From Christensenellaceae bacterium (GTDB lineage: Bacteria; Bacillota; Clostridia; Christensenellales; CAG-138): DNA of 59,292 nucleotides. The position numbers were made by a program, and so were the translations under genes. The DNA lies in assembly GCA_022510765.1 (NCBI GenBank), contig JAFLSU010000001.1:134551-193842 (forward strand). The letters are read 5' to 3'. The notes under the pieces are model-generated. The model was not told the origin of the DNA, searched no databases, and saw only the letters and a list, made by a program, of their open reading frames with translations. Below, one piece after another: positions 42,251 to 59,292 of this stretch (its first letter is position 1; the number at the start of each line of letters is the position of its first letter).

Positions 42251-42296
42251 GCATTTTTGAGGTAAAATAGTTTAAGACTGATTCGGTTGATATTAA

Positions 42297-42814: not shown

Positions 42815-42820
42815 GAGTTT

Positions 42821-43576: not shown

Positions 43577-43607
43577 CCCATTCGCAGTCCTGCTCTATCA
43601 TTAAAAC

Positions 43608-43642: not shown

Positions 43643-43659
43643 ATCCAATTTATATCATT

Positions 43660-45567
43660 TTACATCGCTTTGGTTGCGATCTCTTCAAGCACCTTCGACG
43701 CAAAATCATCAAGCGTCATTGCGCCGAGATCGCCATCCTTCCTTGAGCGAACGGCAACCACATCGTTCTCTACCTCCTTATCGCCCACGATAAGCATATA
43801 AGGGATCTTCTGCATCTGCGCTTCTCTGATCTTAAAGCCAATCTTCTCGTTGCGCAGATCCGTCTCAACGCGCAGTCCGCGCTTTTCGAGGCTTGCCGCA
43901 ATCTCCTTAACGGCATCGTGCGTGCGATCCGTCATCGCCATGACCATGACCTGCACAGGCGCTATCCAAGTCGGGAACGCTCCCGCGAAATGCTCGGTGA
44001 TCACGCCAATGAAACGCTCAAGCGAGCCGAAAACAACGCGGTGGATCATTACGGGGCGATGCTTCGCGCCATCCGCGCCCGTGTATTCAAGCTCGAACCG
44101 CTCGGGAAGCTGCATATCGAGCTGGATCGTACCGCACTGCCATGTGCGTCCGAGACAGTCGGCAAGATGGAAGTCCAGTTTGGGACCATAGAACGCGCCA
44201 TCGCCTTCGTTGATAACAAAATCCTTCCCAAGCTCCGTAATAGCCGCCTTGAGGGTATCGGTCGCAAACTCCCAGTCCTTTATATCGCCAATGTGATCCT
44301 CGGGCATGGTGGAAAGCTCAATGGTGTAGGAAAGGCCGAAGGTCGAATACACTTCGTCGAACAGGCGCGTGACGTTCTTTATCTCGTCCTTCATCTGGTC
44401 CCAAGTCATAAAGATATGCGCGTCATCCTGCGTGAAGCAGCGAACGCGGAACAGACCGTGCAGCGCGCCCGACAGCTCATGGCGATGAACGAGTCCAAGC
44501 TCACCCATGCGCAGGGGCAGGTCGCGATAGGAGCGCATCTCCGTCTGATACACAAGCATTCCACCCGGGCAGTTCATGGGCTTGATCGCAAAATCCGTCT
44601 CATCGATGACGGTCGAATACATGTTGTTCTTGTAGTGATCCCAATGGCCTGAACGCTCCCACAGGCTGCGGTTCAGCATCATCGGAGTGGAAATTTCAAC
44701 ATAGCCATAGCGCTTATGCACTTCACGCCAGTAGTCAACGAGCGTATTCTTCAGCACCATGCCCTTCGGCAGATAGAACGGGAAGCCCGGGCCCTCGTCC
44801 ATTATCGCGAACAATCCCAGTTCCTTGCCGAGCTTACGATGGTCACGCTTCTTTGCCTCCTCGAGCATATGGATGTACTCATCCAAATCCGCCTTCTTTT
44901 CAAAAGCGGTGGCATAGATGCGTTTGAGCATCTTATTCTTTTCGCTTCCGCGCCAATACGCGCCCGCAACGCTCATTATCTTGATATTCTTGCATTTACC
45001 CGTGCTTTCGAGATGGGGGCCTGCGCAGAGGTCTACGAAGTCGCCCTGCCGATAGAAGCTGATAACGGCATCCTCGGGCAGGTCATTGATAAGCTCGACC
45101 TTGTACGGCTCACCCTGCTCCTCCATGTACCTGATCGCTTCCTCACGAGGCAGCTCGAACCGCTCAAGGGGCAGATTCTCGGATACTATCTTTGCGATTT
45201 CCTTTTCAATCTTTGGGAAATCCTCAGGGCTGAACGGTACTTCGGTGTCAAAATCATAGTAGAAGCCGTTGTCGATAGCGGGGCCGATGGCGAGCTTTAC
45301 CTCCGGCCATATCCTCTTTACAGCCTGGGCAAGTATGTGGGAACCCGTATGACGATACGTCCATTTGCCGCCGTCGTCCGCAAAGGTGAGGAGTTTTAAT
45401 TCATGATCCCCACGGATCGGCAGCGCCGCATCATAGAGATGTCCGTCAAGCTCCGCCGCAAGGGTCGCCTTGCGAAGCCTTGGGCTTATGCTTTCTGCGA
45501 TGGCATATGCGTTTACGCCATCCTCATACTGACGTATCGAGCCGTCAGGAAAAGTGATGTTCATCAT
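43660..45567 (-). CDS. thrS: Threonyl-tRNA synthetase
   Basis: A 635-residue class II synthetase. It attaches threonine to tRNA-Thr. Residues 1-62 form the TGS domain (MMNITFPDGSIRQYEDGVNA). The editing domain follows, with HILAQAVKRIWP near 76 and the Cys/His pair GDFVDLCAGPHLEST near 176. The class II catalytic core has motif 2 in GELGLVHRHELSGALHGLFR near 357 and motif 3 at GSLERFIGVITEHF near 509. The anticodon-binding domain is at 535-635. The start could also be the second Met. Expression is controlled by a T-box leader just upstream. Confidence 0.97.
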   Translation of the reverse strand: MMNITFPDGSIRQYEDGVNAYAIAESISPRLRKATLAAELDGHLYDAALPIRGDHELKLLTFADDGGKWTYRHTGSHILAQAVKRIWPEVKLAIGPAIDNGFYYDFDTEVPFSPEDFPKIEKEIAKIVSENLPLERFELPREEAIRYMEEQGEPYKVELINDLPEDAVISFYRQGDFVDLCAGPHLESTGKCKNIKIMSVAGAYWRGSEKNKMLKRIYATAFEKKADLDEYIHMLEEAKKRDHRKLGKELGLFAIMDEGPGFPFYLPKGMVLKNTLVDYWREVHKRYGYVEISTPMMLNRSLWERSGHWDHYKNNMYSTVIDETDFAIKPMNCPGGMLVYQTEMRSYRDLPLRMGELGLVHRHELSGALHGLFRVRCFTQDDAHIFMTWDQMKDEIKNVTRLFDEVYSTFGLSYTIELSTMPEDHIGDIKDWEFATDTLKAAITELGKDFVINEGDGAFYGPKLDFHLADCLGRTWQCGTIQLDMQLPERFELEYTGADGAKHRPVMIHRVVFGSLERFIGVITEHFAGAFPTWIAPVQVMVMAMTDRTHDAVKEIAASLEKRGLRVETDLRNEKIGFKIREAQMQKIPYMLIVGDKEVENDVVAVRSRKDGDLGAMTLDDFASKVLEEIATKAM

Positions 45568-45619
45568 AATAAAACCTTTCTCCTTTGGTTGTTATTCTAT
45601 CCCGTGGAGGCGCAGATAT

Positions 45620-45860
45620 AATAAAAACCGTCCTTGAAACAACTTCAAGGACGGCAGTTACCGCGGTTCCACCTTGATTGCAGGGAAGCAAAAAATCCCT
45701 GCCGCTCAAAAGATTTAAGGCACTCCTGCCGCGGCGCATCCGCCGCTGCGGTCACAAGTTGGTTTTAGCTGGTGCCGTTCGCAGACCGCTTTCAGCCAAG
45801 GCAGTCATTCTCTTATCCGAACTTATACATCCGCCAGTATCTTGATCAACCCGCAATTTT
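45620..45860 (-). promoter_or_regulatory. T-box leader of thrS
   Basis: T-box RNAs sense uncharged tRNA and allow transcription of aminoacyl-tRNA synthetase genes. The conserved T-box AAGGTGGAACCGCGG lies at 45675-45661 on the minus strand. It is preceded by a stem-rich region and followed by a terminator hairpin. Stem I falls within about 45840-45750. A candidate specifier ACC (threonine) is at 45773-45771, in the context GGCACCAG. The codon assignment is an inference from context. Confidence 0.88.
45621..45654 (-). terminator. T-box-controlled terminator
   Basis: CCGTCCTTGAA and TTCAAGGACGG (45654-45644 and 45638-45628) form a perfect 11-bp stem with a 5-nt loop, followed by TTTTTATT on the minus strand. 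It is the terminator that uncharged tRNA-Thr would prevent by stabilising the alternative antiterminator. Confidence 0.85.
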
Positions 45861-45865
45861 GATAC

Positions 45866-45894
45866 ATTATAAAGACGCTTCAATAAATTGTCAA
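45866..45894 (-). promoter_or_regulatory. Promoter of the thrS T-box transcript
   Basis: TTGACA (45894-45889) and TATAAT (45871-45866) both match consensus and are 17 nt apart. Transcription would begin near 45859, giving a leader of about 290 nt before the thrS start. Confidence 0.85.
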
Positions 45895-46075
45895 GCACCT
45901 TTTTCAGGCTTTTGCACATAATACAATGTGGGATTTCCATGAGGCTTGCATAGGTGGATGATCCTTCCAATGATTTGCGCCATCCGTAAGCAATGCGCAT
46001 GGCTAAGAGCGGTTATGCTGCGGATGGCACATTCCCCAAGTGCGATCGAACTTGGGTGAAAGGCTTGGTAATTTT

Positions 46076-46813
46076 ATGCAAACATACTCCATCATCACAT
46101 ATGATTATGATGTAAACATGGAGAAGCTTCTCATAAGGAGGCTGCGCAAACAGGAATTTGAACCCGAAATAGATTCGTCCGAATCAAAAAAACGGGTTAC
46201 GATAACTATTTCCGATGATGAATGCCTTGTGAAGCTCAGCAATGCGCTTTCGGAGCTTATACTCATCGACCTCCGGCATCTCGAAATTGCACGAATAGCG
46301 AACGCGCTTCCATTCACTCGGGAGGAAAAGCGCAAACTGCTCCCCCGCGCTCTCAAAAGCTCCATTCAATACTCGGACTACTCCAAAACCGCAAAGGAAT
46401 TATACGATTACTTAACCGAAAACGATATTTTGATCGTTGAAGGCTATATGCGTTTCCGTATGCAGGACGTCATGGAAACATGGTCGGTATGCGTTGACAC
46501 CGCAGCCGAAGAACAGCTCTTGCACGAGGAATACATGGAGCTCATGCGGCTTCTCGGCATGTTTACGGAGCTTCGCGCTCCCGCCACGGGCGCGGTCACC
46601 ATAATCATGCACCCCGACGGCAGCAGCACCATAACCGACGAAAACGAAGTGCGCATTGACTGTGCGCAGGGAAACGACGGAGGTGTATTAAGTATGCTTA
46701 TCGGCATGGCCCCTGAGAAAATCTACATATACGATTTAAGCCGGGGACGGAATTCGAACCTGAAGGAAAGCATAAAAACGCTGTTCGGGTCAAGGGTTAG
46801 CTGCTACAGTTAA
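46076..46813 (+). CDS. YtxC-like sporulation protein
   Basis: A 245-residue protein resembling YtxC, a sporulation-associated protein found next to thrS in many Bacillota. It begins MQTYSIITYDYDVNMEKLLI and has the conserved central segment VEGYMRFRMQDVMETWSVCV followed by EEQLLHEEYMELMRLLGMF. The C-terminal part (FTELRAPATGAVTIIMHP) differs in detail. The molecular role is unknown. The position beside thrS, although on the opposite strand here, agrees with the family's usual neighbourhood. The start at 46076 has GAAAGG 12 nt before it. An alternative GTG at 46040 adds 12 residues. Confidence 0.75.
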   Translation: MQTYSIITYDYDVNMEKLLIRRLRKQEFEPEIDSSESKKRVTITISDDECLVKLSNALSELILIDLRHLEIARIANALPFTREEKRKLLPRALKSSIQYSDYSKTAKELYDYLTENDILIVEGYMRFRMQDVMETWSVCVDTAAEEQLLHEEYMELMRLLGMFTELRAPATGAVTIIMHPDGSSTITDENEVRIDCAQGNDGGVLSMLIGMAPEKIYIYDLSRGRNSNLKESIKTLFGSRVSCYS

Positions 46814-46882
46814 GGCGGGGTGAGTCATGACAGATAAACAAGGCAAGCTCGAACGACATGATTGCAGCCCACAAATCTGTCA

Positions 46883-47770
46883 TCACCCGGCAGTGTCCTC
46901 CCTTTCCCTGCCGAGTTTAACCTCTCTCGCATAATAGAAAATGTATTGCTGAACGATGCCTGAATACCTTCCGATGCTCTCGACGGCATGGTTCAGCTCC
47001 GCCTTGGTGGGCTGTTCGCTTCCAAAGAAAAGCTCCGTCATCGCCCGCCCGATCCAAACATCAATCGGGAACGCATCCGTATGCCCGAGCGAGAACAGCA
47101 GCACGCAGTCGGCAACCTTGGGACCAACTCCCGGGAAGGTCAGAAGCTCCTTCCTTGCTTGATTTAGCGGAAGGCCTCGAAGCGTTTCAAGGTCGTAGCC
47201 CTCGCCTATACGCCTTGCGGAGGCCTTGATGTACGGTGCTCGATAGCCGGTTCCTATAGCTTTAAGCTCGTCCTCAGAAAGTGCAGCTATCCGCTCCGCA
47301 GCAGGAAATGCGTACAGTTTTTCTCCCTTAAGCTCAATTTCTTCGCCGCACAGCCTGCAAAGGCGTTCAACAATGCCCGAAATGCGCTTAATATTATTGT
47401 TTGCGGAGATTATGAACGAAATCAACGCTTCAAACGGTTCCTGATTGAACACGCGTATACCCGACGCACCCGGCAGGCACACGCAGAGACGCGGATCCCT
47501 TGCCAAGGAGCGTTCTATGGACATATAGTCGCGTTCGAGATCAAAATAATCAATAAATATCCGCTCATCGCCTGGAGCGCATGGAAATATGGTAAGTTCA
47601 TCCCCGCTCTTGGATACCTTTACGGCACGGGAACGAACAACTCCAAGCCAGGATTCACCATCCGCACAAGGCGTCCAACGGAACGCCTGTCCGCATTTAC
47701 AGCTCTTTTCCAGATCAAATTCTTCGATCCCGCTGATTCTTAGTGTTTTATCAATCAATGAATACTTCAT
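46883..47770 (-). CDS. 8-oxoguanine DNA glycosylase (OGG1-type)
   Basis: A 295-residue base-excision repair enzyme of the HhH-GPD superfamily. The helix-hairpin-helix reads LLTFPGVGPKVADCVLLF near 208, with the catalytic Lys in PKVADC. The catalytic Asp lies in DAFPIDVWIGRAM near 234. The N-terminal part, DLEKSCKCGQAFRWTPCADG near 20, is the OGG-type beta domain that recognises oxidised guanine. It removes 8-oxoguanine paired with C and cleaves the strand by beta-elimination. It is larger than MutM-independent archaeal AGOG enzymes and close to the human form in domain order. No operon partner is obvious. Confidence 0.9.
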   Translation of the reverse strand: MKYSLIDKTLRISGIEEFDLEKSCKCGQAFRWTPCADGESWLGVVRSRAVKVSKSGDELTIFPCAPGDERIFIDYFDLERDYMSIERSLARDPRLCVCLPGASGIRVFNQEPFEALISFIISANNNIKRISGIVERLCRLCGEEIELKGEKLYAFPAAERIAALSEDELKAIGTGYRAPYIKASARRIGEGYDLETLRGLPLNQARKELLTFPGVGPKVADCVLLFSLGHTDAFPIDVWIGRAMTELFFGSEQPTKAELNHAVESIGRYSGIVQQYIFYYAREVKLGREREDTAG

Positions 47771-47808
47771 GCAGCTATTTTACAACATTTTTCAACCTTT
47801 TTAAAGTA

Positions 47809-47835
47809 CAAAAAACGGCATCTCACGCGATGCCG
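47809..47835 (-). terminator. Terminator of the small lipoprotein gene
   Basis: On the minus strand CGGCATC (47835-47829) and GATGCCG (47822-47816) form a 7-bp stem with a 6-nt loop, followed by TTTTTTG. This is a typical intrinsic terminator. It lies in the first unit of a 42-bp tandem repeat whose other copies have lost perfect pairing. Confidence 0.7.
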
Positions 47836-47940
47836 CAGGAGGTAAATGTGTTAATAACGGTATCTTATTCGATGCAGCGGGAGGTAAAGGTGTTCATAAC
47901 TGCGTCTTATGCGATGAAGCAGAACGTTATTCTGATCATT
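47815..47940. repeat. Three tandem 42-bp repeats
   Basis: Units start at 47815, 47857 and 47899, each beginning AC(G/T)G(C/T)ATCT or similar. They share a core resembling ATGC(C/A)GC(A/G)GGAGGTAAA. In the plus-strand frame they translate as 14-residue repeats (TASHAMPQEVNVLI, TVSYSMQREVKVFI, TASYAMKQNVILII). The unit length is a multiple of 3 and changes favour conservative substitutions, so coding is possible, although no start is convincing. The first unit contains the terminator of the gene on the opposite strand. Confidence 0.7.
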
Positions 47941-48208
47941 CCCTAGTGGATAATGGCTCCACTGTTTCCGGCATGGACTCATCGATCGCAGCCGAGTCGA
48001 AGCCATCCTCATTCGCTCCATCTACGGTCGGATTAGGAGTTACAATAGGTCTTTTTGTGGGGTCGGGAACTCCCGTGGGAGACACGGTGACGATAGGTTC
48101 CTCGGTGTCAAAATTGCTTGACAGGTTGCTTGAGGTCATCGGCTTTGTACATGCAAAAACCGACAGCAGCATGGAAGTTGTGAGCGTGACGACAAATAGT
48201 TTTTTCAT
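47936..48208 (-). CDS. Small lipoprotein
   Basis: A 90-residue exported protein. The N-terminus MKKLFVVTLTTSMLLSVFAC is a lipoprotein signal peptide with a lipobox ending VFAC, so Cys20 would be acylated and the protein anchored outside the membrane. The remainder is rich in Pro, Thr, Ser, Asp and Glu (TVSPTGVPDPTKRPIVTPNP) and is probably disordered. GAAAGG precedes the ATG at 48208 by about 6 nt. The function is unknown; the linker-like composition suggests a spacer or a protein whose functional domain was lost. Confidence 0.75.
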   Translation of the reverse strand: MKKLFVVTLTTSMLLSVFACTKPMTSSNLSSNFDTEEPIVTVSPTGVPDPTKRPIVTPNPTVDGANEDGFDSAAIDESMPETVEPLSTRE

Positions 48209-48512
48209 GCTAAGCCTTTCTTCCCGCAATTCGCAGGATAGGTGCGCGGCACCGCAAATATTCGGTTGGATTCACATTCCAAGACGAGGTGGATGAATGA
48301 TGGAATGCTTATCAAACTTCACCTTTCCTTATATAGGATACAGAAACTCAAAGCGATGTCAACAGTCGGCACGAATTGTTAACAAAAAATTTACAATTTC
48401 ATAACGCAATCGTTAAATATATGAAAACACCGCTCTCGTTTTAACGAATGCGGTGTTGATTATGAACTCAGTAAGCTAAAGTAAAACCTACTCGAAGTCC
48501 TTTTATTATGAC
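48209..48512. other. Intergenic region before the lipoprotein gene, with the L27 terminator
   Basis: This 304-nt stretch holds no gene. It contains the terminator at 48426-48457 of the ribosomal-protein operon and AT-rich sequence that probably includes the lipoprotein promoter. TGAAATTGTAAATTTTT on the minus strand near 48385-48401 is a feature-poor AT tract. Confidence 0.5.
48426..48457 (-). terminator. Terminator of the rplU-prp-rpmA operon
   Basis: AACACCGC (48457-48450) pairs with GCGGTGTT (48433-48426) on the minus strand. An inner TCGTT/AACGA pairing and a following TTTTCATATATTT tract complete it. It lies 56 nt after the rpmA stop. Confidence 0.75.
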
Positions 48513-48803
48513 TTAGCCAGCTATTTCCTCGGGGTATACGCTGACACACTTGCGACCGCCGTGCTTGGTCTCAAAGCGAAGAACGCCGTCAACCTTTGCA
48601 AACAGGGTGTCATCCTTACCGATACCAACGTTGGTGCCGGGATGGAAATGGGTGCCGCGCTGCCTGACAAGGATGTTGCCCGCAAGCACGAACTGACCGT
48701 CCGCACGCTTCGGCCCTAGACGCTTGGATTCGCTTTCACGGCCGTTACGGGAGCTACCTACGCCCTTCTTATGTGCGAAAAGCTGCAGATTAATCCTGAA
48801 CAT
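48513..48803 (-). CDS. rpmA: 50S ribosomal protein L27
   Basis: A 96-residue ribosomal protein. It begins with the extension [20 protein letters not shown], typical of Firmicutes, in which the protease Prp cuts after NLQLF to expose AHKKG. The mature N-terminus reaches the peptidyl-transferase centre. [20 protein letters not shown] and [20 protein letters not shown] are standard L27 segments. It is the last gene of rplU-prp-rpmA, starting 2 nt after the prp stop. Confidence 0.97.
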
Positions 48804-48805
48804 AC

Positions 48806-49135
48806 TTAAACCTCCCTCTCTATCAGTTTGAGATAATCACAATATTCATCCTGTATGGAACGAAGTCCTACGAGCATCGTCCCGAGTATCAATTCCGCCC
48901 TTTGCCATTGCTCATCCTCAACGGATCCATCGAGCATCAGGCGGAGACATCCGTCCTCCATCTCAAACGCCGCAGAACAACCGATAAGCTCGGTTATGCC
49001 CAGAACGGCAGTCTGCGTGACTGCGGAAATCGCAGCGCATACGATATCCTCGCCTGCATCCGCATAATCCGCATGCCCGACGGCATCGAAGCCAACGAGC
49101 CTGCCACCCTTACGAAAGACGGTAATCACGGTCAT
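48806..49135 (-). CDS. prp: Ribosomal-processing cysteine protease Prp
   Basis: A 109-residue protease that removes the N-terminal extension of L27. The catalytic His is in [19 protein letters not shown] (His21) and the catalytic Cys in DIVCAAI (Cys33). These two residues and the spacing match the YsxB/Prp family. The length is standard. It lies between rplU and rpmA, with 11 nt to rplU and 2 nt to rpmA, so the protease and its substrate are made together. Confidence 0.96.
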
Positions 49136-49146
49136 ACAGCTTCCTC

Positions 49147-49452
49147 TCAGCCGATCGAAAGAATCTTGACCTTAGTATATGGCTGGCGATGACCCTGCTT
49201 TTTGCGATAATCCTTTTTCGGCTTATACTTGAAAACGATTACCTTCTTGCCCTTGCCATGCTCAAGCACTTCTGCATTTGCGGAAGCACCCGCGACCACG
49301 GGCTTGCCGATCTTGACATTTTCGCCATCAGCCATCAACAGAACGTCGAATTTAACGTTTGCGCCAACCTCTGCGTCGAGCTTCTCGACCATGATCTCGC
49401 TGCCAACCTCGACCTTGTACTGTTTACCGCCGGTTACTATGATTGCGTACAC
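49147..49452 (-). CDS. rplU: 50S ribosomal protein L21
   Basis: A 101-residue ribosomal protein that contacts 23S rRNA. It starts with GTG ([20 protein letters not shown]), with AGGAGG 9 nt upstream. [20 protein letters not shown] and [20 protein letters not shown] are the conserved middle and C-terminal rRNA-binding parts. It is the first gene of rplU-prp-rpmA, preceded by an L21-type leader and a promoter. Confidence 0.97.
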
Positions 49453-49463
49453 TCAGATTTCCT

Positions 49464-49540
49464 CCTCTATCCAGTCTCGCCCTTATGGTGAGCGCAAAAC
49501 TGCATCCGCGCTTCTTAAACCGTTTCGGAGCGGCTCACCG
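49464..49540 (-). ncRNA. L21 leader (autoregulatory RNA)
   Basis: The leader before rplU starts with GGTGAGC (49539-49533), which pairs with GCTCACC (49493-49487). Between them is a compact fold including AAGCGCGGATGCAGTTTTGCGC. This arrangement matches the Firmicutes L21 leader, thought to bind L21 and repress the operon. It ends a few nucleotides before the AGGAGG of rplU. Confidence 0.65.
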
Positions 49541-49544
49541 AATT

Positions 49545-49573
49545 ATGATACCACTTTTGACACGGAATGTCAA
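49545..49573 (-). promoter_or_regulatory. Promoter of the rplU-prp-rpmA operon
   Basis: TTGACA (49573-49568) and TATCAT (49550-49545) are 17 nt apart on the minus strand. The transcript would start near 49539, exactly at the 5' side of the L21 leader stem. Confidence 0.8.
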
Positions 49574-49633
49574 TAAAAAATAGGCGGTTCATTTATATAT
49601 TTCATAGCGAATCTTACTCATCACGAACACATC

Positions 49634-49663
49634 AAGACCTACGTCACGAAGGACGTAGGTCTT
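49634..49663. terminator. Terminator after the SEC-C gene
   Basis: AAGACCTACGTC (49634-49645) and GACGTAGGTCTT (49652-49663) form a perfect 12-bp stem with a 6-nt loop. It lies between the SEC-C protein gene and the rplU promoter. T-rich sequence follows on the plus strand and is weak on the minus strand. Confidence 0.6.
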
Positions 49664-49740
49664 AGTTTTCTGCAAGCTCAATCTCAACCATTGACATTGA
49701 GCCTAAAAATACTCATGCTAACGCAAGCAATGGACATTCG

Positions 49741-50250
49741 TCAGTCGGCGGAGCGGCCACAGCATTTCTTATACTTCTTGCCGCTTCCGCACGGGCAGGG
49801 CTCGTTCGGGCCGACCTTTGGGCTATTGTTTACGAATTGCTTCGACTCACGCCATTTTTTGGTGATCTCCTTGCGGCGTTCCTCCGAAAGCACGGCGTTC
49901 CACTCATTGAGGTTATACAGCCAATGCGCCTTTGCCTCGTGCATATTGAAATAGAGTTTTTCAAAATCAATATCGAGCGAAATCTCAGAATCAGTCTCGA
50001 TATTTTCAATATCAAGCTCCGCATTCAGACTTGTATTGATGCCATCAAGGAAGCCCGCGAAAACCGCTTCGGGCATATCGAATGCCTCCGCGAGGTCGCT
50101 CACCTTGCCCTCGTATTTGATCGAGATGTCCGAAAGGATCTTTTTATATGCCTTGGTTTCAATGGCAAAATAATTATCCCAAAACTCCTTCAGCTCGCGC
50201 TCGTTAGCCGATGCACCGGCAATTTGCTGCCAATCGTTATACAAACCCAT
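49741..50250 (-). CDS. SEC-C zinc-binding domain protein
   Basis: A 169-residue protein. The C-terminal motif [20 protein letters not shown] is a SEC-C zinc-binding domain with the Cys-X-Cys...Cys-Cys pattern, as in the SecA tail. The N-terminal 130 residues are acidic and helical ([20 protein letters not shown]) and include a conserved-looking [18 protein letters not shown]. Proteins of this layout are common in Clostridia; their role is unknown, possibly binding ribosomes or SecB-like partners. It follows icd by 43 nt and may be co-transcribed. Confidence 0.8.
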
Positions 50251-50293
50251 TATACTATCTCCATGCCACGCTCTTTACTTAGCTCTTTACACA

Positions 50294-51508
50294 TTATGCG
50301 AGCAGCGCTTCAAGGTTCTCACGAATCTTCTTGATGAAGCCCTCGGTGCTGCAAACGTTCTTTTCTTCCATATCCGCAAGGAGCGCAAGGTCCTTGGTCA
50401 TATAGCCGCTTGCAATCGTATCGAGGGAAGCCTTCTCGAGCATATCGGCAAAGTGCATCAGCTCGGGCAGCTCGTCAAGCTCACCGCGCTTGCGGAGCGC
50501 ACCGCTCCACGCGAATATGGTCGCCATGGAGTTTGTAGAGGTGCTTTCACCGTTGAGATGCTTGTAATAATGCTTAGTAACAGTGCCGTGCGCCGCCTCA
50601 TACTCATAGTTGCCATCGGGCGAAACGAGAACGCTCGTCATCATTGCAAGGCTGCCGAACGCGGTAGCAACCATATCGCTCTGAACATCGCCGTCATAGT
50701 TCTTGAGCGCCCAGATGAAGCCGCCTTCGGAACGGATGACCCTTGCTACTGCGTCATCTATCAAAGTATAGAAGTAGGTGATGCCCAGTTCTTCGAACTT
50801 CTCCTTATACTTCTCATCATAGATATTCTGGAAGATATCCTTGAAGGTATGGTCATACTTCTTGGAGATGGTATCCTTGGTGGAGAACCACAGATCCTGC
50901 TTGGTCGCAATTGCGTACTGGAAACAGGCGTTTGCAAAGCTCTCGATCGAATCGTCCTTATTGTATGTACCCATAAGAACGCCGGGGCATTTGAACTCGA
51001 AAACGGTTTCATCGAAAACAACGTTTCCATCGGCATCCGTGAACTTTATCTCCGCTTTGCCGGGGCCGGGTACGCGGAACTCCGTGCACTTATAGATGTC
51101 ACCGTATGCGTGACGAGCAATGGTGATGGGCTTCTTCCAGCTCCTGACGGAGGGCTTGAGGCAATCCATGGTTATGGGCGCACGGAACACGGTTCCGTCG
51201 AGAATAGCACGAATCGTACCGTTGGGACTCTTGTACATACGCTTGAGGTTGTACTCGGTCATGCGCTGAGCGTTGGGGGTGATGGTTGCGCACTTAACGC
51301 CAACGCCGTACTTTTTGCAGGCTTCCGCTGCGTCAACGGTAATCTGGTCATCAGTCTCGTCCCTCTTGACAAGGCCGAGGTCGTAATACTCGGTCTTAAG
51401 ATCAACGAAAGGAAGAATCAGCTCGTCCTTGAGGATCTTCCAGATGATACGGGTCATTTCATCGCCGTCCATCTCAACCAAGGGGGTCTTCATCTGAATC
51501 TTTGCCAT
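50294..51508 (-). CDS. icd: NADP-dependent isocitrate dehydrogenase (eukaryotic-type)
   Basis: A 404-residue enzyme oxidising isocitrate to 2-oxoglutarate. It starts [20 protein letters not shown], characteristic of the homodimeric eukaryotic-like subfamily II. The substrate-binding [19 protein letters not shown] is near 94, the metal- and isocitrate-binding region [20 protein letters not shown] near 247, and the NADP region [20 protein letters not shown] near 312. GGAGATTTTATC precedes the ATG at 51508. The longer frame from 51577 adds 23 unlikely residues. In anaerobes it often supplies 2-oxoglutarate for glutamate synthesis. Confidence 0.95.
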
Positions 51509-51676
51509 GATAAAATCTCCTTTTGTAAAGCAAAATTCTATTTGTTGTTTATATAACGGAGCGGATGCGGCGAGCACATCCGCTCGGCCAATCGTAATCG
51601 ATATTAGCTAGTTTATTATCTTGCCGCCCTGCTACGTATGCGCAGTTGATAGTTTTTTTGCGGCTTAGTTAACTCA

Positions 51677-52138
51677 TTATTTGGTCAGCTCGCTGGTGCA
51701 ATGCGGGCAGCGGGTCGCATCGTCATGAATCTCGGTCTTGCAGAACGGGCAGAGCCTGGGTTCATGAACGGGTTCTGCTTCCTCTTTCTTCTTGCCAATA
51801 TCCTTGAGCTTATTGATCAGCTTCACGATTATGAATATGATCAGCGCAATAAGCAGGAAATTGATGACGGCCGCAATGAACTGTCCGTAGCTGAGTACGG
51901 TCGCACCGGCTGCGGTCGCATCGGCAGCAGTCATGCCCTCGGTAATAAGGCCTCCGCCCTTGAGGACGATGAACAGCGAACTCAGGCTTGAAGCATTGAA
52001 AACAAGACCGAACAACGGCATGAACAGGTCGTTTACAACGCTCGTGACTATGCTTCCGAAGGCGGCGCCAATCATAACACCGACAGCCATGTCCATGACA
52101 TTGCCCTTAAAAGCAAACTTTTTGAATTCAGACCACAT
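51677..52138 (-). CDS. mscL: Large-conductance mechanosensitive channel MscL
   Basis: A 153-residue channel that opens under membrane tension to release solutes. The N-terminus MWSEFKKFAFKGNVMDMAVG and first helix VGVMIGAAFGSIVTSVVNDL are highly conserved. The second helix is near 90-115 (FLLIALIIFIIVKLINKL). The C-terminal tail is unusual in carrying four cysteines in a zinc-ribbon pattern (LCPFCKTEIHDDATRCPHCT), found in some Clostridia MscL proteins. The ribosome site GGAGG lies 8 nt upstream. Monocistronic. Confidence 0.95.
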   Translation of the reverse strand: MWSEFKKFAFKGNVMDMAVGVMIGAAFGSIVTSVVNDLFMPLFGLVFNASSLSSLFIVLKGGGLITEGMTAADATAAGATVLSYGQFIAAVINFLLIALIIFIIVKLINKLKDIGKKKEEAEPVHEPRLCPFCKTEIHDDATRCPHCTSELTK

Positions 52139-52305
52139 ATAATACCTCCATAGTGGTTGATTACTTTAAATATAACCTAAACATGCGCTGATTTCAATAG
52201 CAAGAAATAATATAAAATCACATTTTTCGCGTACATAGCCCAATAGACCAGCAAACTTTGCAAATTTGTATTAATCACTTGATTCTTTGTGCCACACAAC
52301 TTTGC

Positions 52306-53382
52306 CTACCAGCCCTGCGTTGATAGCGTTTCTCCCGTCGCCTTCACGATAAATACCTCCAAATCTATCGAGTCGGACCCTTCGGCAAACTCGATAGCCT
52401 CATCAGGAGGCATCAAGAACAGCATCGTCGACAGAGCGTCCGCAAGCTCGGAGCTGCCAACACATACCGTGACGGACTTTACATAGTCCGCCGGAAAAAG
52501 GGTTTCGGGGTCGATTATATGATGGTACCGAATCCCGTCCACCGTGTAATACCTTTGGTAGTCACCGCTTGTGACAAGCGACTGCCCCGCGATGCTCTTA
52601 TACGTGATGTTTTCACTTCCGGTAACCCCGCTTGGAATCGCGTCCGCTCCGCTAAGGTTTTCATAAATGACAAACGGATTCTGTACTGCGGTATTCCATT
52701 CCTCTCCGCCGGGCTTGGTGCCTATTGTACCGATGTTTCCTCCCGCATTGATCAATACGCCGTCATAGCCAAGCTCCATTAGCGTATCGCATACCCGCTC
52801 CACGGCAAAGCCCTTTGCTATCGCTCCTACGTCTATGCTCGCTTGCTCGTCGGTTATCTCCACCGTACCCGCTTCCGAATCCACTATCAGGCTGCCGATG
52901 TCACAATGCTCACTCGCCCGCAGAAGCTCCGACCTCTCGGGAAGCACAGCGGAATCGGGCGAATTTATTCCGTTCTCCCTATATTCATGCCATATGCTCA
53001 GCACTGCTCCGAACATGATATTGAGCCTGCCCTCGCTATAGGAATGCATTGAAATGCCAAAATTTAGTAAATCTATTATCTCCTGAGCAGCTTCCACCGC
53101 GCCTTTGCCCGCGTTATCGTTTATGGATTTTAAATTGGTTATTCCTTCATATGTATTATAAATATCGAAATACCTATGATAGCTGAGCATTTCCGCCTCG
53201 ACGGTCGTACAAAGCTTTTCAAAATCGCTTTCATTTTTGCAAAATGCCGTAATTGTAACGGAGGTGTCGAACGCGCCCAAAAAGGTATAGCTATAGCGAT
53301 TAAGACCCGCGCAGGCTGATATTGCGCCGGTACAGGTTATCAAAAGTATTATTACAACAAAAAAGGACGCAGCCCGTTTCAT
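52306..53382 (-). CDS. apbE: FAD:protein FMN transferase (ApbE family) lipoprotein
   Basis: A 358-residue exported enzyme that attaches FMN through a phosphoester bond to Thr or Ser of flavoproteins such as Rnf and Nqr subunits. A lipoprotein signal at the N-terminus ends GAISAC. The flavin-binding region is GAFDTSVTITAFC near 33. Other landmarks are SEGRLNIMFGAVLSIW near 120, SIDVGAIAKGFAVERVCDTL near 185, and the metal-binding ITSGDYQRYYTVDGIRYHHIIDP-like region near 270. The start at 53382 follows a weak GGACG site. It lies downstream of the ger operon, whether co-transcribed is unclear. Confidence 0.92.
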   Translation of the reverse strand: MKRAASFFVVIILLITCTGAISACAGLNRYSYTFLGAFDTSVTITAFCKNESDFEKLCTTVEAEMLSYHRYFDIYNTYEGITNLKSINDNAGKGAVEAAQEIIDLLNFGISMHSYSEGRLNIMFGAVLSIWHEYRENGINSPDSAVLPERSELLRASEHCDIGSLIVDSEAGTVEITDEQASIDVGAIAKGFAVERVCDTLMELGYDGVLINAGGNIGTIGTKPGGEEWNTAVQNPFVIYENLSGADAIPSGVTGSENITYKSIAGQSLVTSGDYQRYYTVDGIRYHHIIDPETLFPADYVKSVTVCVGSSELADALSTMLFLMPPDEAIEFAEGSDSIDLEVFIVKATGETLSTQGW

Positions 53383-53433
53383 ATTAGATAGATTACGTCC
53401 TTTTCCCAAATATGTCAAGTTTTTGTTCGGATT

Positions 53434-53595
53434 TTATTTCATCTGATTGATTTGAAGCGCTGCTGTGCCGGCAGCGATAAGCCCGATAAGTATCACCATG
53501 CCAATAACGGAACCAAACCTTCTGCCGCGTATGCTGTGGATCATATACATCACATCGTAAATCACGCAAACTGTCGCAACAACAAGTACTATCAT
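53434..53595 (-). CDS. 53-residue two-helix membrane protein after gerC
   Basis: This short gene has a good ribosome site (GGGGGTG, 7 nt before the ATG). It encodes two hydrophobic helices, MIVLVVATVCVIYDVMYMIH and SVIGMVILIGLIAAGTAALQ, joined by a basic loop (SIRGRRFG). It starts 12 nt after the gerC stop, so it belongs to the ger operon. Bacillus germinant receptor operons sometimes carry a small D-subunit of about 75 residues with two membrane helices that modulates receptor function. The size class and position fit, but sequence similarity cannot be judged here. Confidence 0.75.
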   Translation of the reverse strand: MIVLVVATVCVIYDVMYMIHSIRGRRFGSVIGMVILIGLIAAGTAALQINQMK

Positions 53596-53607
53596 ACGTA
53601 CACCCCC

Positions 53608-54885
53608 TTACTGCCTCGAAATGGCGATATAAAAATCGTCCAGCATGAGATTTAAATCAAACTCGACCTCGATATCGGCATAGTTCTTCTTCCAATCAAA
53701 GGCCTCAAGCTCCGCAACCGTCCTGAATTCTTTCGAAACATACTTGCCAAGACCCATCGCGTCACTATTGCATTCCTGACATATCTTGAAAACACGTTCA
53801 AGCTCCGATACAAAATAATCCTGCACTAGCTCATGCATTCCTTCGTTCCACTTCTCTCCTATGGTACGCGTGGCATCCTGTTCCACCGAGATGTCTAAGT
53901 TCAGGCTTACCTTCACCTTAATCTTCTCTCCGCTCATATCGACCTTTACGGTTCGCTTATCCATTTTGGCAAGCAGGGCTATGGGAACCTGTTTGCCGGG
54001 TTTGTCTGCTTCTGTGGATTTATCCGATTTTCCGGAATCGATCGAGCCTTTTGGTATGCTCAGGCTGCACGTTATCGTGCCGGACTTAAACTCTCCCCTT
54101 CCCATGTTCATGAACTGAGTATCATGCGGGGTTAGCATCCCTGTCATCTTCCACCCATCAAACAGCGCGGCAGCGGTGGTGAGAGACATTGTGCCGCCCA
54201 AAGGCGCTCCCTCCTCCGCGTCCTCGAGCGGATTTTTGCCTTCGGAAGACGAAGTTTTTTGGCTCGCATCGGTCACCACTTTCTCATTGAAAAACCCGAC
54301 CGGCGTCACCGGGTCAAAATACTCACCATCGCACGCTTCCAAAAAGGTGCTCAAGTCGGTAACGGCGATTTGTCCTGAGTTGATCTGGTCATATAACATG
54401 TCGTCCTGGAATTTGGTCAGATTAGGATTGTTATTCGCCGCAAGGCCGCCCAGGTACTCCCTGAGCGTACATTGAACGATCATAACGATCGCCGACTGCC
54501 TTATGCGCAGCTTATCAAATGATAGTTTGAAAAAATCCTCTATCATACCTTCACGGGCAAGCTCCTCCCCGAATATGAACACATGCGTCCTTGTAAAATT
54601 CAATGGATACGCCGTTCTGTAGCTTATTCGGTTGATGGCTTCAAAAAGAGTGTTCCCCTCCGAGGAAAGTATGATAGAGCCGCCCTCGTTCTCCGAGCCT
54701 TCGTTGGAACGTTCTCTTTGCAGCTCCAATATGACCTCATATTTTTCCTCCTTGCCCTTATCCGCACCTATCGTAACCACATAGCCATAGTTATCAAGGC
54801 TTATTGGGTTTAGACAGCCCGTCAAGGCCGCGCATGCGCAGAACATCAACACAATCGCCATTATAATACATATCTTTTTTCTCAT
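53608..54885 (-). CDS. gerC: Germinant receptor lipoprotein, Ger(x)C family
   Basis: A 425-residue lipoprotein of the spore inner membrane. The signal peptide MRKKICIIMAIVLMFCACAA ends at the lipobox LTGC. LNPISLDNYGYVVTIGADKG is the start of the first domain, and RTHVFIFGEELAREGMIEDF lies near 115. The C-terminal third includes EQDATRTIGEKWNEGMHELV and the final domain with NYADIEVEFDLNL. Ger(x)C proteins form part of a nutrient receptor with A and B subunits. The ATG at 54885 is preceded by the unusual initiation element at 54886-54925. A GC-richer insert (SEGKNPLEDAEEGAPLGG) is present near 230. Confidence 0.9.
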   Translation of the reverse strand: MRKKICIIMAIVLMFCACAALTGCLNPISLDNYGYVVTIGADKGKEEKYEVILELQRERSNEGSENEGGSIILSSEGNTLFEAINRISYRTAYPLNFTRTHVFIFGEELAREGMIEDFFKLSFDKLRIRQSAIVMIVQCTLREYLGGLAANNNPNLTKFQDDMLYDQINSGQIAVTDLSTFLEACDGEYFDPVTPVGFFNEKVVTDASQKTSSSEGKNPLEDAEEGAPLGGTMSLTTAAALFDGWKMTGMLTPHDTQFMNMGRGEFKSGTITCSLSIPKGSIDSGKSDKSTEADKPGKQVPIALLAKMDKRTVKVDMSGEKIKVKVSLNLDISVEQDATRTIGEKWNEGMHELVQDYFVSELERVFKICQECNSDAMGLGKYVSKEFRTVAELEAFDWKKNYADIEVEFDLNLMLDDFYIAISRQ

Positions 54886-54925
54886 GCTTACTACCATAGC
54901 TTTCACGCAGCGAAAGCTTCCTTTC
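54886..54925 (-). promoter_or_regulatory. Initiation element: GAAAGG, hairpin, ATGGTA, ATG (copy 3)
   Basis: On the minus strand GAAAGG (54925-54920) is followed by a 9-bp hairpin AGCTTTCGC-TGC-GTGAAAGCT (54918-54898) and ATGGTAGTAAGC directly before the gerC ATG. The match to the copy before the SpoVB-like gene is close over more than 40 nt. Confidence 0.5.
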
Positions 54926-55030
54926 TTTTGGAATTGTGGCTGGTTTTGTGAAACAAAATCGGGAGTGCGAAGCGTCGGTAGACGCTTTGATTACAGAAAG
55001 CCACAAAACCGAGCTTGAAAAATTTATTTT
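54926..55030 (-). promoter_or_regulatory. Structured gap between gerB and gerC with alternative pairings
   Basis: On the minus strand the segment GGTTTTGTGGCT (55010-54999) can pair in two overlapping ways. GGTTTTGTG pairs with CACAAAACC (54950-54942), or TTGTGGCT pairs with AGCCACAA (54941-54934). Between them lies a perfect hairpin AAGCGTC-TACC-GACGCTT (54987-54970). Such overlapping pairing options are what a regulatory switch would need. This is an unusually long and structured gap for a ger operon. Confidence 0.45.
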
Positions 55031-56152
55031 TCAAACTTTACTCCCTTCTTTCAGCGCGCCTCCCGATTTTTTCTTCAGAAGCGCGATAAACGCCGCGATC
55101 AACAGCGGCACTGCGATAACTACAAAGCCGATGCTGTCCGATATATTTCGAAGCTGCTGAAAATTCAATATTACACCGTCGAACTCAAATAAGAGTACGA
55201 TCATCGTCAGCACCGCTGCGGAACCCATAGGGGGCCTGATGTCCTTCAAGCCAAAGCTCTGAGTGAAAAGGAGCGAACCTGCGTAGATATAGAATGAACC
55301 CGCTAGCATACAGCCGTTCAGCCATGCCATCTGCGCAAGCTTATCCATGCGCAGAAGCTGTGTTTCAAATCGGTTAAGGTGGTTCAGGCGGTACAATGGC
55401 ATGAATAGTTGCTGTAGCTCGGAATATGTGTATATCAGGCTCAGCGCAAACTGCGCAACGAAGCATACGCCCGCCGCGACAAGCGCCGCAATGATACCGG
55501 TTTTTTTTGCCGATTTCACTCCGTTCAGCCCGTTGCAGGTCACGAGTAATCCCACCATACCCGGCAGAAAGCATGCCATTTCGGAGAACGAAAGCTCCGT
55601 TGTCCGCCTCAGATCGCCGCCAAGGATCGGATAAAGCCTATATACCTCAAATTCGTTCACAGCCGAAACGATGTTTATCGCCGTGATCAGCAGCATAAGC
55701 CCCACAAAGCACTTCGCGGCTCTGCCTATGGTTTCAAACCCAAGCCACGCTATTATGAGTACCGTCGGAAGCACGAACAAAGTTATCTGCCCATATGTAA
55801 CTCCGTTATAGTAAAGCGCGTGCATGCTCTGGATGAACTTTCCTATTGGCGAATATGCCGCGATGATAAAACACAGGAACAAAACCAACGACGCTATCGA
55901 CGCACCCACGCTTCCAAAAGCATTTTTTAACAGTTCCGAAAGATTCCTTGAGCCGCTCCTGCGCATGGACGCGATCAGTATAAGATAAAGAAACAGCGAA
56001 AGTATTGCCGCAACAGGTAGCGTTACATAACTTGAATTACCCTTAGAATATGTAAAGGATTGATCGAGAGTAAATAGCCCGCTGACCGCCATGGCCGTTG
56101 CCGCGAGGCTTACTCCCTCCTGCATACCCATCCTGCCTTCTTTTAAGTTCAT
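55031..56152 (-). CDS. gerB: Germinant receptor permease subunit, GerB family
   Basis: A 373-residue membrane protein of the APC-like GRB family with about ten helices. It binds nutrient germinants in the spore inner membrane. It begins MNLKEGRMGMQEGVSLAATA and has LDQSFTYSKGNSSYVTLPVA near 30, followed by helices at about 42-62, 80-105, 122-142, 150-170, 195-215, 228-250, 275-300 and 310-360. The ATG overlaps the gerA stop (ATGA), so translation is coupled. The order A-B-C is that of typical tricistronic receptors. Confidence 0.9.
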   Translation of the reverse strand: MNLKEGRMGMQEGVSLAATAMAVSGLFTLDQSFTYSKGNSSYVTLPVAAILSLFLYLILIASMRRSGSRNLSELLKNAFGSVGASIASLVLFLCFIIAAYSPIGKFIQSMHALYYNGVTYGQITLFVLPTVLIIAWLGFETIGRAAKCFVGLMLLITAINIVSAVNEFEVYRLYPILGGDLRRTTELSFSEMACFLPGMVGLLVTCNGLNGVKSAKKTGIIAALVAAGVCFVAQFALSLIYTYSELQQLFMPLYRLNHLNRFETQLLRMDKLAQMAWLNGCMLAGSFYIYAGSLLFTQSFGLKDIRPPMGSAAVLTMIVLLFEFDGVILNFQQLRNISDSIGFVVIAVPLLIAAFIALLKKKSGGALKEGSKV

Positions 56153-57759
56153 TGATTCGTATCCCTCCTTTTTTCGAGCGAATCACCAAAGGTGTTCAGA
56201 TAGTCCTCTCCTCGATGATGAAGTCCGATTTTGCCGCGCAGAATAAACGGGCGTTTTGCATACGTTTTGGGTGCATACGGGGCGAGGAACGGAACCCCAA
56301 AGGATTTCAGATTTGAAATATATCCTATAAAGAGCATGAATGCAGCAACAAGCCCAAGCAACCCGCCCATCCACGCCGCAAGGACGAACGCGATCCGAAA
56401 ATACGATGCAGAGATCTGCGTGGAATAATCCGGTATGCAGAAGTTTCCAAGACCCGACAGAGCAACTATGATGAGTATGACTGAGCTTGCAAGGTTCGCG
56501 GCGACCGCAGCCTGACCGAGAATAAGGCCACCGATAACGCCGATCGCCTGCCCAACGCTCCCGGGAACGCGCATTCCCGCTTCGCGTATAAGCTGAAAAA
56601 CAAACAGGAGCAGTATCATTTCAAACGGGAGCGGTTCAAACACCATCTTTCTTGACTGGATCACCGTACTCAGCACCTCGGTCGAAAGCAATCCCTGATG
56701 GTACATCGCAAGCGCGATGAAGTACCCGGGAAGCAGGAGCGACAGGATAACGCCTGCATATCGTATAACACGCATGACGTTGCCGAGCGGCCAACGCATA
56801 TAGATGTCCTCGGAGGTGCTCATCATGGTTGCGATGGTGACAGGCATGACCAGTGCGAACGGACTCCCCTCGGAGATCAACGCCACTCCGCCCTGCATGA
56901 TATATGAACAAGCTTTGTCGGGACGCTCGGTGGACAGTATCTGAGGTATCGGCGACCAGCCCGTATCCTCAATAAGCTGCTCGATCATTCCGGTGCTTGC
57001 AACCATTCTGGTGCTTATCGCAGCAAGCCTTCGCTTGATTTCTTCAATCAGAGTACGGTTGGTTACGCCGTCACGATATATAATTGCGATGCGGGTATTA
57101 TTATCACCTCCTGACATCCTGAACTCGGCCACCAGGTCGTCCGAGTGGATTATCCTTCGCACCAAAGTTATATTGGTGCGAAGGCTTTCGGTGAAGCCCT
57201 CCTTGGGTCCCCGTATCGCCCGCTCGTTCTCCGGTTGCATAACGCTTCGCTTTTCAAACGACCTCGTTTCAAGCAGTATTGCCACGGTTGATCCATCGAC
57301 GAACAGGGCGGTTCTGCCGTCCATTATTGCGAGCTTTGCAGAATTAAAATCCGTATCCGTCTCGGTCTCGCTTATTTGCAGGATATTGTTTATCAAATAA
57401 TCGGGATCGGTTTTAACTTCTCCATCCGCTGCCATCAGCGGTCTAAGTATAAAATCGCTAATGCTTTTATCTCCAGCCATTCCGTTCATATAGATAAGAA
57501 GCGCGGGAAACTTCCCGGCAATGTTGAATCTGCGGAAAATGATATCGGTATTGATATCGGATCTGAATACCTCTCTGAATTGACGTTCAATTTCAGTAAT
57601 ATCATCCGAAAATGACACCTTTTTTACATCGCCATCGGGGTAGACATCGCTCCATCCGCCCCAATGCTGAGGAGCGCCCTTTTCACGCTCCAGCAACTCG
57701 TAGCGCACATCCTGTTTATCGAATCCAAGAAATCTACGCATACTTTCCGTAAAGCCCAT
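56149..57759 (-). CDS. gerA: Germinant receptor subunit A, GerA family
   Basis: A 536-residue protein of the spore germination receptor. The soluble N-terminal half has KFPALLIYMNGMAGDKSISD near 85 and the segment EGFTESLRTNITLVRRIIHS near 190, the conserved signature of the family. The C-terminal half has 4-6 membrane helices, including EPLPFEMILLLFVFQLIREA near 365 and SVGQAIGVIGGLILGQAAVA near 400. GGAGGTAATA precedes the ATG. It is the first gene of gerA-gerB-gerC-small membrane protein. Such operons are normally read in the forespore by sigma-G; I could not define that promoter with confidence. Confidence 0.93.
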   Translation of the reverse strand: MGFTESMRRFLGFDKQDVRYELLEREKGAPQHWGGWSDVYPDGDVKKVSFSDDITEIERQFREVFRSDINTDIIFRRFNIAGKFPALLIYMNGMAGDKSISDFILRPLMAADGEVKTDPDYLINNILQISETETDTDFNSAKLAIMDGRTALFVDGSTVAILLETRSFEKRSVMQPENERAIRGPKEGFTESLRTNITLVRRIIHSDDLVAEFRMSGGDNNTRIAIIYRDGVTNRTLIEEIKRRLAAISTRMVASTGMIEQLIEDTGWSPIPQILSTERPDKACSYIMQGGVALISEGSPFALVMPVTIATMMSTSEDIYMRWPLGNVMRVIRYAGVILSLLLPGYFIALAMYHQGLLSTEVLSTVIQSRKMVFEPLPFEMILLLFVFQLIREAGMRVPGSVGQAIGVIGGLILGQAAVAANLASSVILIIVALSGLGNFCIPDYSTQISASYFRIAFVLAAWMGGLLGLVAAFMLFIGYISNLKSFGVPFLAPYAPKTYAKRPFILRGKIGLHHRGEDYLNTFGDSLEKRRDTNQ

Positions 57760-57952
57760 TATTACCTCCGTAACAATTTATACGCAGTCTTGATCGGTAC
57801 GAATTTATGCATCCAACGTGTCCATCGAACGAATCCGCAGCGATCCCTCACGGTATTATCTGCAAAGAAACTCTTTGTCATTCAAAACCGTCATTATTCC
57901 GCATGGCTATGACATATAATCAAGCGACGTATAAAAAGTGGAGGGAATTAAC

Positions 57953-58852
57953 GTGAAAATATTCGTTATTTCAAAAAAGACGCTCATGCTTGCGCTCGGC
58001 GCGCTGCTCGTAGTTATTGCGGCGATCATATTCGCTCTCACAAGCATCGGAGGAAAATCAGAAGCTCCCGATGGCGGAGATCCTTCGGTCGGGACATCGG
58101 GCAACACGTTAGGGAACGCATCCAGCAACGTATCTGGTAACGTATCAAGCGGCAATCATGGAAACGTGGTCGAGCAGTATGAACTGGATGTGCTGGCAGG
58201 GCTGATGAAGGAACTGCCGGTGTACAGCGTCAGCCGCGAGGATAAAAAGATCGCGCTGACGATCGATGCGGCATGGGATGATGACAAAACCGATTTCATC
58301 CTTGAAACGCTGCAAAGGTACAACATTAAAGCCACATTCTTCCTTTGCGGATTTTGGGCGAAAGACTACCCCGAAAAGGTGAAGCTCATTCACGAACAAG
58401 GGCATGTGATCGGGAATCATTCTATGACGCACCCACATATGAATTCCCAGTCCTCCGCACAGATTCTTAATGAGCTAAAAAGCTATGACGACCTGCTTGA
58501 ATCCATAATCGGCACGAGATCGACCCTGTTCCGTGCGCCATACGGCGAGTATAATGACAACGTCATCACCACCGTCCGCAGCGCGGGCTATGAAGTGATC
58601 CAATGGGATGTCGATACGGTCGATTGGAAGGAGGAACGCTCAGCGCAGACCATCCTTGATACGGTTTTCTCGAAGCTCAAAGACGGCTCCATCATCCTCT
58701 GCCACAACAACGGCTATAAGATTGAGCAGTACCTTCCAACGCTCATCGAGACCGCACTCGAGCAGGGCTATGAGTTCGTGACCGTAAGCGAGCTTCTTCA
58801 CAGCGGCAGCACCATAATCGATGTAAACGGCGTTCAAAAACCTGCTGAATAA
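57953..58852 (+). CDS. Polysaccharide deacetylase, PdaB-like
   Basis: A 299-residue membrane-anchored carbohydrate esterase family 4 enzyme. A single N-terminal helix (about residues 8-32) is followed by a Ser/Gly/Asn linker. The catalytic NodB domain begins at about 90 with KKIALTIDAAWDDDKTDFIL, where the usual TFDD becomes TIDAAWDD, as in PdaB/YlxY-like sporulation proteins. Then come GHVIGNHSMTHPHMNSQ (the His-X3-His metal site), RAPYGEYNDNVIT and IILCHNNGYK. PdaB-type proteins act in spore cortex maintenance. The GTG start at 57953 follows GGAGGG. It is encoded divergently from the ger operon. Confidence 0.85.
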   Translation: MKIFVISKKTLMLALGALLVVIAAIIFALTSIGGKSEAPDGGDPSVGTSGNTLGNASSNVSGNVSSGNHGNVVEQYELDVLAGLMKELPVYSVSREDKKIALTIDAAWDDDKTDFILETLQRYNIKATFFLCGFWAKDYPEKVKLIHEQGHVIGNHSMTHPHMNSQSSAQILNELKSYDDLLESIIGTRSTLFRAPYGEYNDNVITTVRSAGYEVIQWDVDTVDWKEERSAQTILDTVFSKLKDGSIILCHNNGYKIEQYLPTLIETALEQGYEFVTVSELLHSGSTIIDVNGVQKPAE

Positions 58853-59003
58853 AGAATTTTTGGAAAAAGATCCTCGAATTCAACGTTTTAGAAATTATTA
58901 GGGGCGACTTTGCCGGGACCTCAAAATCTCACAAAGCCACCCTTAAATCTTTTAAGGAATATGTTTCTAATACTGCAACGAGTTAGATAAGCTTACTTAG
59001 GGA

Positions 59004-59032
59004 TTGTCTTATTTTGGCCGTTATGTTATTAT
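59004..59032 (+). promoter_or_regulatory. Promoter of the terminal GNAT gene
   Basis: TTGTCT (59004-59009) and TATTAT (59027-59032) are 17 nt apart, and a TG extension precedes the -10 box. The gene starts at 59067, about 30 nt after the expected start site. Confidence 0.55.
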
Positions 59033-59066
59033 AGCGATAGACTTGAATTTACAGGGAGGCTGTAAT

Positions 59067-59292
59067 ATGGAAATACGAAGGTTTCAACAGGAAGATGCAA
59101 TAGAAACAGCACAACTTATTGCCAAAACTCTAATGATAAGCAATAGTAAAGACTACTCAAGAGAATACATTGAAAGCACTATAGCGTCCCATTCAGCAGA
59201 CATTTTAAGGGAGCGAGCAAACGATGGACATATGTACGTTGTTTGTGATGATTCACGGATCATTGGATGTGGTGCTATTGCGGGATATTGGG
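59067..59292 (+). CDS. GNAT-family N-acetyltransferase (partial, runs off the window)
   Basis: The first 75 residues of an acetyltransferase-like protein. It begins MEIRRFQQEDAIETAQLIAK, the usual first strand and helix of the GNAT fold, and continues to DDSRIIGCGAIAGYW, corresponding to strand 3. GGGAGG precedes the ATG by 8 nt. The acetyl-CoA binding loop is beyond the window edge. Codons are AT-rich relative to the deacetylase gene before it. Confidence 0.75.
   Translation, partial: MEIRRFQQEDAIETAQLIAKTLMISNSKDYSREYIESTIASHSADILRERANDGHMYVVCDDSRIIGCGAIAGYW

Follow-up and report, generated by a model that had tools for sequence, protein, structure and literature searches.

A short two-helix membrane protein gene closes the gerABC operon of a Christensenellaceae bacterium and probably encodes an accessory germinant receptor subunit

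The gerABC operon in the 59,292 nt stretch of Christensenellaceae DNA analysed here (the window) is closed by a conserved, selected protein-coding gene, D, the product of which has two hydrophobic helices around a basic loop (IRGRR). This protein probably serves the GerA-type germinant receptor as a fourth, accessory subunit, and its position, its anatomy and the literature on the D-subunits of Bacillus suggest that its most likely role is to tune or stabilise that receptor. Two kinds of small two-helix protein are found in clostridial ger operons and are named here class I and class II. The window protein is of class II, which, as far as the libraries searched show, has so far been neither named nor modelled.

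The four genes are arranged in the order gerA-gerB-gerC-D, all in the same direction and with D last (Table 1). The D frame begins with ATG, ends with TAA and contains 53 codons, and the distance of 12 nt from gerC, the stop codon of which lies at 53608–53610, is exactly that given in the original prediction. The strong ribosome site claimed there is also borne out: TAAGGGGGTG differs by a single base from TAAGGAGGTG, overlaps the gerC stop codon, and has its 3′ end 5 nt ahead of the D-gene ATG. For gerC itself, the ATG at 54885 appears to be a more likely start than the listed GTG at 54906. The gerA gene is the sole gerA match in the 1.87-Mb genome, and its product has an N-terminal extension ahead of the GerA domain.

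Table 1. Features of the ger operon and its downstream end (window positions)
Feature	Position	Strand	Basis
gerA subunit	56149..57759	minus	Pfam PF03323, residues 61-510 (E 2.7e-146)
gerB, spore permease-type subunit	55031..56152	minus	Pfam PF03845 (E 4.5e-16)
gerC, Ger(x)C lipoprotein subunit	53608..54906	minus	Pfam PF25198 (2.7e-29), PF05504 (3.8e-22)
Ribosome-binding site TAAGGGGGTG	53601..53610	minus	read from sequence; overlaps gerC stop codon
Class II D gene, 53 aa, two-helix membrane protein	53434..53595	minus	ORF listing, conservation, chance control, model
Hairpin AAAAGGACG...CGTCCTTTTTT, terminator-like, U-rich end	53352..53412	minus	RNA fold -18.7 kcal/mol, z -3.96

The hairpin lies directly 3′ of the D gene, where it covers the start of apbE, and may mark the point at which ger transcription ends. 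Nothing was reported at the end of the ger operon by the terminator scan, which permits only short loops (up to 8 nt). The hairpin is placed over the apbE start codon and might also control the translation of apbE. No convincing sigma-G/F promoter was seen upstream of gerA in the window, and among seven members of the genus a single strict match was found, in G007. The region 40000–59292 gave no Rfam match at the gathering threshold. On the far side of apbE from the ger operon is a gene at 51677–52138 that we take, from its sequence, to be mscL (mechanosensitive channel). Genes that are presumably also mscL come after ger or D in four loci of genus g10 (L110, L127, L133 and L142), while other genes are found downstream of D elsewhere among the relatives.

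If the frame were absent from related genomes, the original prediction of a real gene would have been in doubt, but the frame is widely kept after gerC, both through the genus and in most of the family. Eleven members of the genus were sampled, including the window genome, and ten of these have gerA (G002 does not). Leaving aside G009, in which the contig ends before gerC, a D homologue of 51–56 codons follows gerC in all nine operons that reach past this gene, its start lying 5 to 66 nt past the gerC stop; protein search located eight of the nine, and the ninth (G004) was recognised on inspection of its sequence. The family sample consists of 40 operons, of which 39 reach past gerC (L123 was dropped, its contig ending before gerC). 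A short D gene is present in 34 of the 39 and a longer one in two (L112, L143), and no D was found in the remaining three (L127, L133 and L142), all of which belong to genus g10 and have kept gerABC. A separate GerA scan provided 37 named loci from MAGs titled Christensenellaceae, Christensenella, Clostridia, Clostridiales and similar, many of rumen or gut origin and largely the same genomes as those of the family sample. The D gene was found in 29 of the 33 named loci with gerC, i.e., in 28 within the distance limit used and in L211 (the same as G006), where the D start, 66 nt on, exceeds that limit; four loci (G009/L208, L218, L230 and L239) were not counted, owing to a contig end or because gerC was not found. 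D was not found after gerC in L233, L235, L238 and L241, and three of these (L233, L235 and L241) are the g10 operons without D.

In 34 of the 37 family operons of A-B-C order, which were picked by GerA and not by the small gene (L112 and L143, of A-C-B order, were excluded), an ORF of 42–80 aa encoding two helices begins close to the gerC stop. In the chance control, the same was seen in 41 of 3,700 dinucleotide-preserving shuffles (1.1%) and in none of the 37 reverse strands. The gene is under purifying selection, with dN/dS values of 0.06–0.66 in 12 of 14 pairs, the other two being saturated; the pair that includes the window gene is a distant one (33% identity, dN/dS 0.42). The window protein is 11–37% identical to 28 relatives and matches no Pfam or NCBIfam model. 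Homologues after gerC genes were found in the genus, in most of the family and in parts of the phylum. Most relatives found by sequence alone adjoin gerC: the class II profile matched 13 genomes of the phylum besides the window's own, with 10 of the 13 matches within ~65 nt after gerC, and 14 of 20 order-level profile matches (own genome included) are, by coordinates, within ~3 kb of gerA.

In PMC4661057, the D-subunits of Bacillus are described as small proteins of two helices that are encoded inside ger operons or alongside them and that modulate the receptor concerned. According to the same source, GerUD of B. megaterium has 76 aa, with its loop measured outside and its ends in the core; without it, the apparent Km for glucose increases from 1.7 to 7.5 mM, and it keeps its function with one helix, with reversed helices or with a reversed sequence. 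Germinant receptors are described as consisting of three parts, joined in some cases by a D-subunit (PMC4661057, PMC11841064, PMC3994143). For Clostridia, the only precedent recognised in the parts of the open-licence literature covered here is GerX(x) of C. botulinum Group III, in agreement with the earlier remark that equivalent genes are poorly described in this group. GerX(x) is presented as a small hypothetical membrane protein of 74 residues in a ger cluster (gerX4, order ACxBBB), with a single transmembrane region and without homologues outside Group III (PMC5083711).

The window D resembles GerUD (B. megaterium) and GerKD (B. subtilis, B. megaterium) in being a small, two-helix protein encoded beside a ger operon, a likeness that is drawn from their descriptions (place, size, two helices). 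Unlike GerUD, it has only 53 aa, and its short basic loop is predicted to be inside. It shares with GerX(x) the setting of a small membrane protein within a clostridial ger cluster, but has two helices where GerX(x) is described as a longer protein with one transmembrane region. The size and place of GerX(x), known here from its description, suggest that it belongs to class I. The comparison with Bacillus D-subunits made in the original prediction was sound for position, size and two-helix anatomy (PMC4661057); sequence homology to the D-like genes of Bacillales was not established, and the window gene falls into a distinct short class. Overall, the D-like reading has good support from anatomy and place and is plausible as regards function, while homology is unproven.

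Class I proteins are defined by the landmarks EVP, WREL and PNP and by a C-terminal tail. They are mostly 65–82 aa long (65–79 in the profile set, 51–82 in the survey below), are encoded next to gerC or gerB, and resemble the products of 75-aa genes beside Bacillales ger genes. Class II proteins are defined as having 47–61 aa, Y-x3-Y-x2-[HYFW] in helix 1, a basic loop and no tail, with the gene closely after gerC. The window protein, with Y13, Y17, H20 and IRGRR, is of this second kind. Like the class I genes of Peribacillus (L103), Cytobacillus (L246) and Clostridia, its gene is beside ger genes and encodes two helices and a basic loop; unlike the longer class I proteins, it has neither their landmarks nor their tail, and the relation of class II profiles to class I reaches only 53–56%. 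No class I profile match at E 0.01 or better was found in the window genome.

The class I profile was built from 11 sequences (two from Bacillales, L143 of the family, and eight of the order from outside the family), and has matches with an E of at most 0.01 in 174 of 299 genomes of the phylum; GerC was found in 247 out of an equal number. When the best 30 matches were inspected as loci, 28 had a same-strand ger gene in the flank, in 26 cases within ~105 nt. A Cytobacillus gene from outside the enlarged class I profile matches it at 6.2e-12. In a survey of one operon for each of 54 families, using a class I profile built partly from the same genome sample and taking the first gerC per family among the matches listed, which favours high-scoring GerC, class I was found beside gerC or gerB in 40 of 54, another two-helix frame in two, none within the limits applied in 12 and class II in none. 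In this survey, G356 was skipped because its gerC is at a contig edge, and G535/L351 was scored as having none, a class I gene being located ~410 nt further on. Assignment to class I was by profile for L359, which has only 51 aa, and by eye, from their tails, for L112 and L188.

Judged by sequence profiles, class II extends beyond the window's family and class I is far commoner. The family and phylum class II profiles (42 and ten sequences) match each other over 51 columns at 96.8%. Among 60 operons of the order from outside the family, class I was found in nine, clear class II in one (L181) and unclassified two-helix frames after gerC in five. The remaining 45 gave no D; some of them are truncated by a contig end or have a gerB or gerC that escaped the models. 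Short two-helix ORFs after gerC in L162, L182, L189 and L203 matched neither class at E 0.1; a 60-aa GTG-start two-helix ORF after gerC in L157 and a TTG-start two-helix ORF after gerA in L167 are also unclassified. Three genomes of one genus (G404, G535 and G560; loci L272, L276, L282, L285 and L290) hold both classes, with a class II gene just after one gerC and a class I D that, in G404 and G535, is ~410 nt beyond another. Members of either class that were scanned had no Pfam or NCBIfam model over cut-off. The class profiles gave no D match in Priestia plasmid operons, and a plasmid search with class I sequences returned four records matching the Peribacillus protein and a single weak match (E 7e-3) for a clostridial one. 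Two loci are unusual in gene number: L148 has two class I genes in tandem between gerC and gerB (3096–3309 and 3333–3546), and L145 has, on its minus strand, one D gene after each gerB (4091–4301 and 5427–5640).

The window protein is predicted with moderate confidence to form a two-helix membrane hairpin. The AlphaFold2 model (29 homologues; mean pLDDT 74, pTM 0.39) has helices at residues 2–23 and 28–52 with IRGRR between them, in line with the two membrane helices and basic loop of the original prediction. Across an alignment of 54 class II sequences, Y13 is present in 49, Y17 in 48 and H, Y, F or W at position 20 in 53, and 47 have K or R at position 23. With a spacing of i, i+4 and i+7, residues 13, 17 and 20 would occupy one face of helix 1. 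Of the class II proteins, 40 of the 42 from the family and all ten from elsewhere in the phylum have a loop of net positive charge (mean +2.83), and the ends are near neutral (about 0). Under the positive-inside rule, a basic loop should face the core, and class II proteins are on this basis predicted to point the loop toward the core of the spore and to have their two ends outside. The charge-based prediction is weak, because class I loops are also positive (36 of 42), yet the loop of GerUD was measured outside; proteins of this type may simply not follow the charge rule. In searches of solved structures, neither class II (best E 0.76) nor class I (best E 0.033, transporters) had a credible relative, and the window GerA matched two chains of 260–272 residues.

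Several other explanations of the D gene were weighed. Readthrough of the gerC stop codon would make D a C-terminal extension of GerC, and the window gene fits this in that its frame has the phase of gerC and is open across the gerC TAA. The D gene has its own ribosome site, however, and its phase relative to gerC varies among the nine genus members (four have 0, three +1 and two +2), so D is not a readthrough tail; a fusion of this type was rejected, its probability being close to nil. A small, very hydrophobic protein without a family match might instead be an independent membrane protein (a toxin or a holin-like peptide, for example) that is encoded downstream of gerC by coincidence, but the D gene accompanies gerC in different genera even though the downstream neighbours change, and it is under selection, making this very unlikely. 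More weight can be given to the idea that the D protein is a general chaperone or spacer, which prevents aggregation of receptor helices in the crowded inner membrane and has no specific interface. The ability of GerUD to function as single helices, even reversed ones, argues against a precise interface in GerUD, and its authors suggest a chaperone role (PMC4661057, Table 3); the low identities among class II proteins also point to a loosely conserved sequence. Against this, the three helix-1 positions are kept in 48–53 of 54 class II sequences, and some non-cognate D genes are reported to damage the receptor in B. megaterium (PMC4661057, Table 2). A general chaperone or spacer is considered possible but somewhat unlikely, and an accessory subunit of the receptor remains the preferred reading.

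A further question is whether class II proteins are diverged, tail-less descendants of class I that do the same job, in which case the two classes would reflect nothing but divergence; the evidence leaves this evenly balanced. By hhalign, class I is matched at 56% by the family class II profile and at 53% by all class II, where the best of 42 two-helix windows from GerA and GerB reached 4.1% and reversed class I at most 0.9%. With the family class II profile, L112, which has a class I tail, gives an E of 1.5e-5 when scaled to 1000 sequences (the best of 1,287 hairpin windows in the control for this profile was 0.03), and the 51 aa of L359 show that class I proteins can be equally short. On the other hand, the hhalign figure was 88% with the first, smaller class I set and fell to 56% once the set was enlarged, and the phylum-wide class II profile alone gives 3% against class I and finds none of 42 class I sequences at E 0.1 or better. 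The class I scores next after L112 with the family profile (0.018 and 0.024) are near the control level, the EVP, WREL and PNP landmarks are missing from class II, and both classes occur together within each of the genomes G404, G535 and G560. An origin of class II from a GerA or GerB hairpin was rejected on the hhalign result for the 42 windows.

An N-terminal extension of GerA (FD..D.RYELLE in the window genus) was seen mainly where D is present (window, L105–L204). An N-terminus of at least 40 residues is found in 54 of 61 receptors with D versus 14 of 57 without, and one exception (L148), when rechecked with the D profiles, had two overlooked class I genes. The link is unproven, because the GerA tree implies at least nine changes of D and a comparison of independent pairs (3.5 versus 1.0) gives a median p of 0.625. 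As a candidate partner of D, the extension was rejected, since the association in the raw counts fails the tree-based test.

The conservation of position over divergent genera suggests that the D protein acts with the receptor. As an accessory subunit, it would be co-translated with GerC in the forespore and inserted as a helical hairpin in the future spore inner membrane. The face of helix 1 formed by Y13, Y17 and H20 may then pack against the transmembrane part of its own receptor, in GerA or GerB, and D would in this way aid assembly or set germinant sensitivity, as Bacillus D-subunits do. The three g10 operons and L238 keep their ger genes without D, which must therefore be dispensable somewhere. 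In a more specific form of this proposal, two separately evolved clostridial families of small subunit share one receptor slot, class II proteins are oriented oppositely to GerUD, the basic loop being in the spore core and the two ends outside, and the helix-1 aromatic stripe holds the GerA/GerB channel closed; this combination is distinctly unlikely.

A small fourth gene is found beside 36 of the 39 receptors in the window's family. If two families of small subunit do share one slot, most clostridial germinant receptors would be four-part and not three-part. If D tunes sensitivity as in B. megaterium, then structural or heterologous reconstructions of clostridial receptors may have lacked a part.
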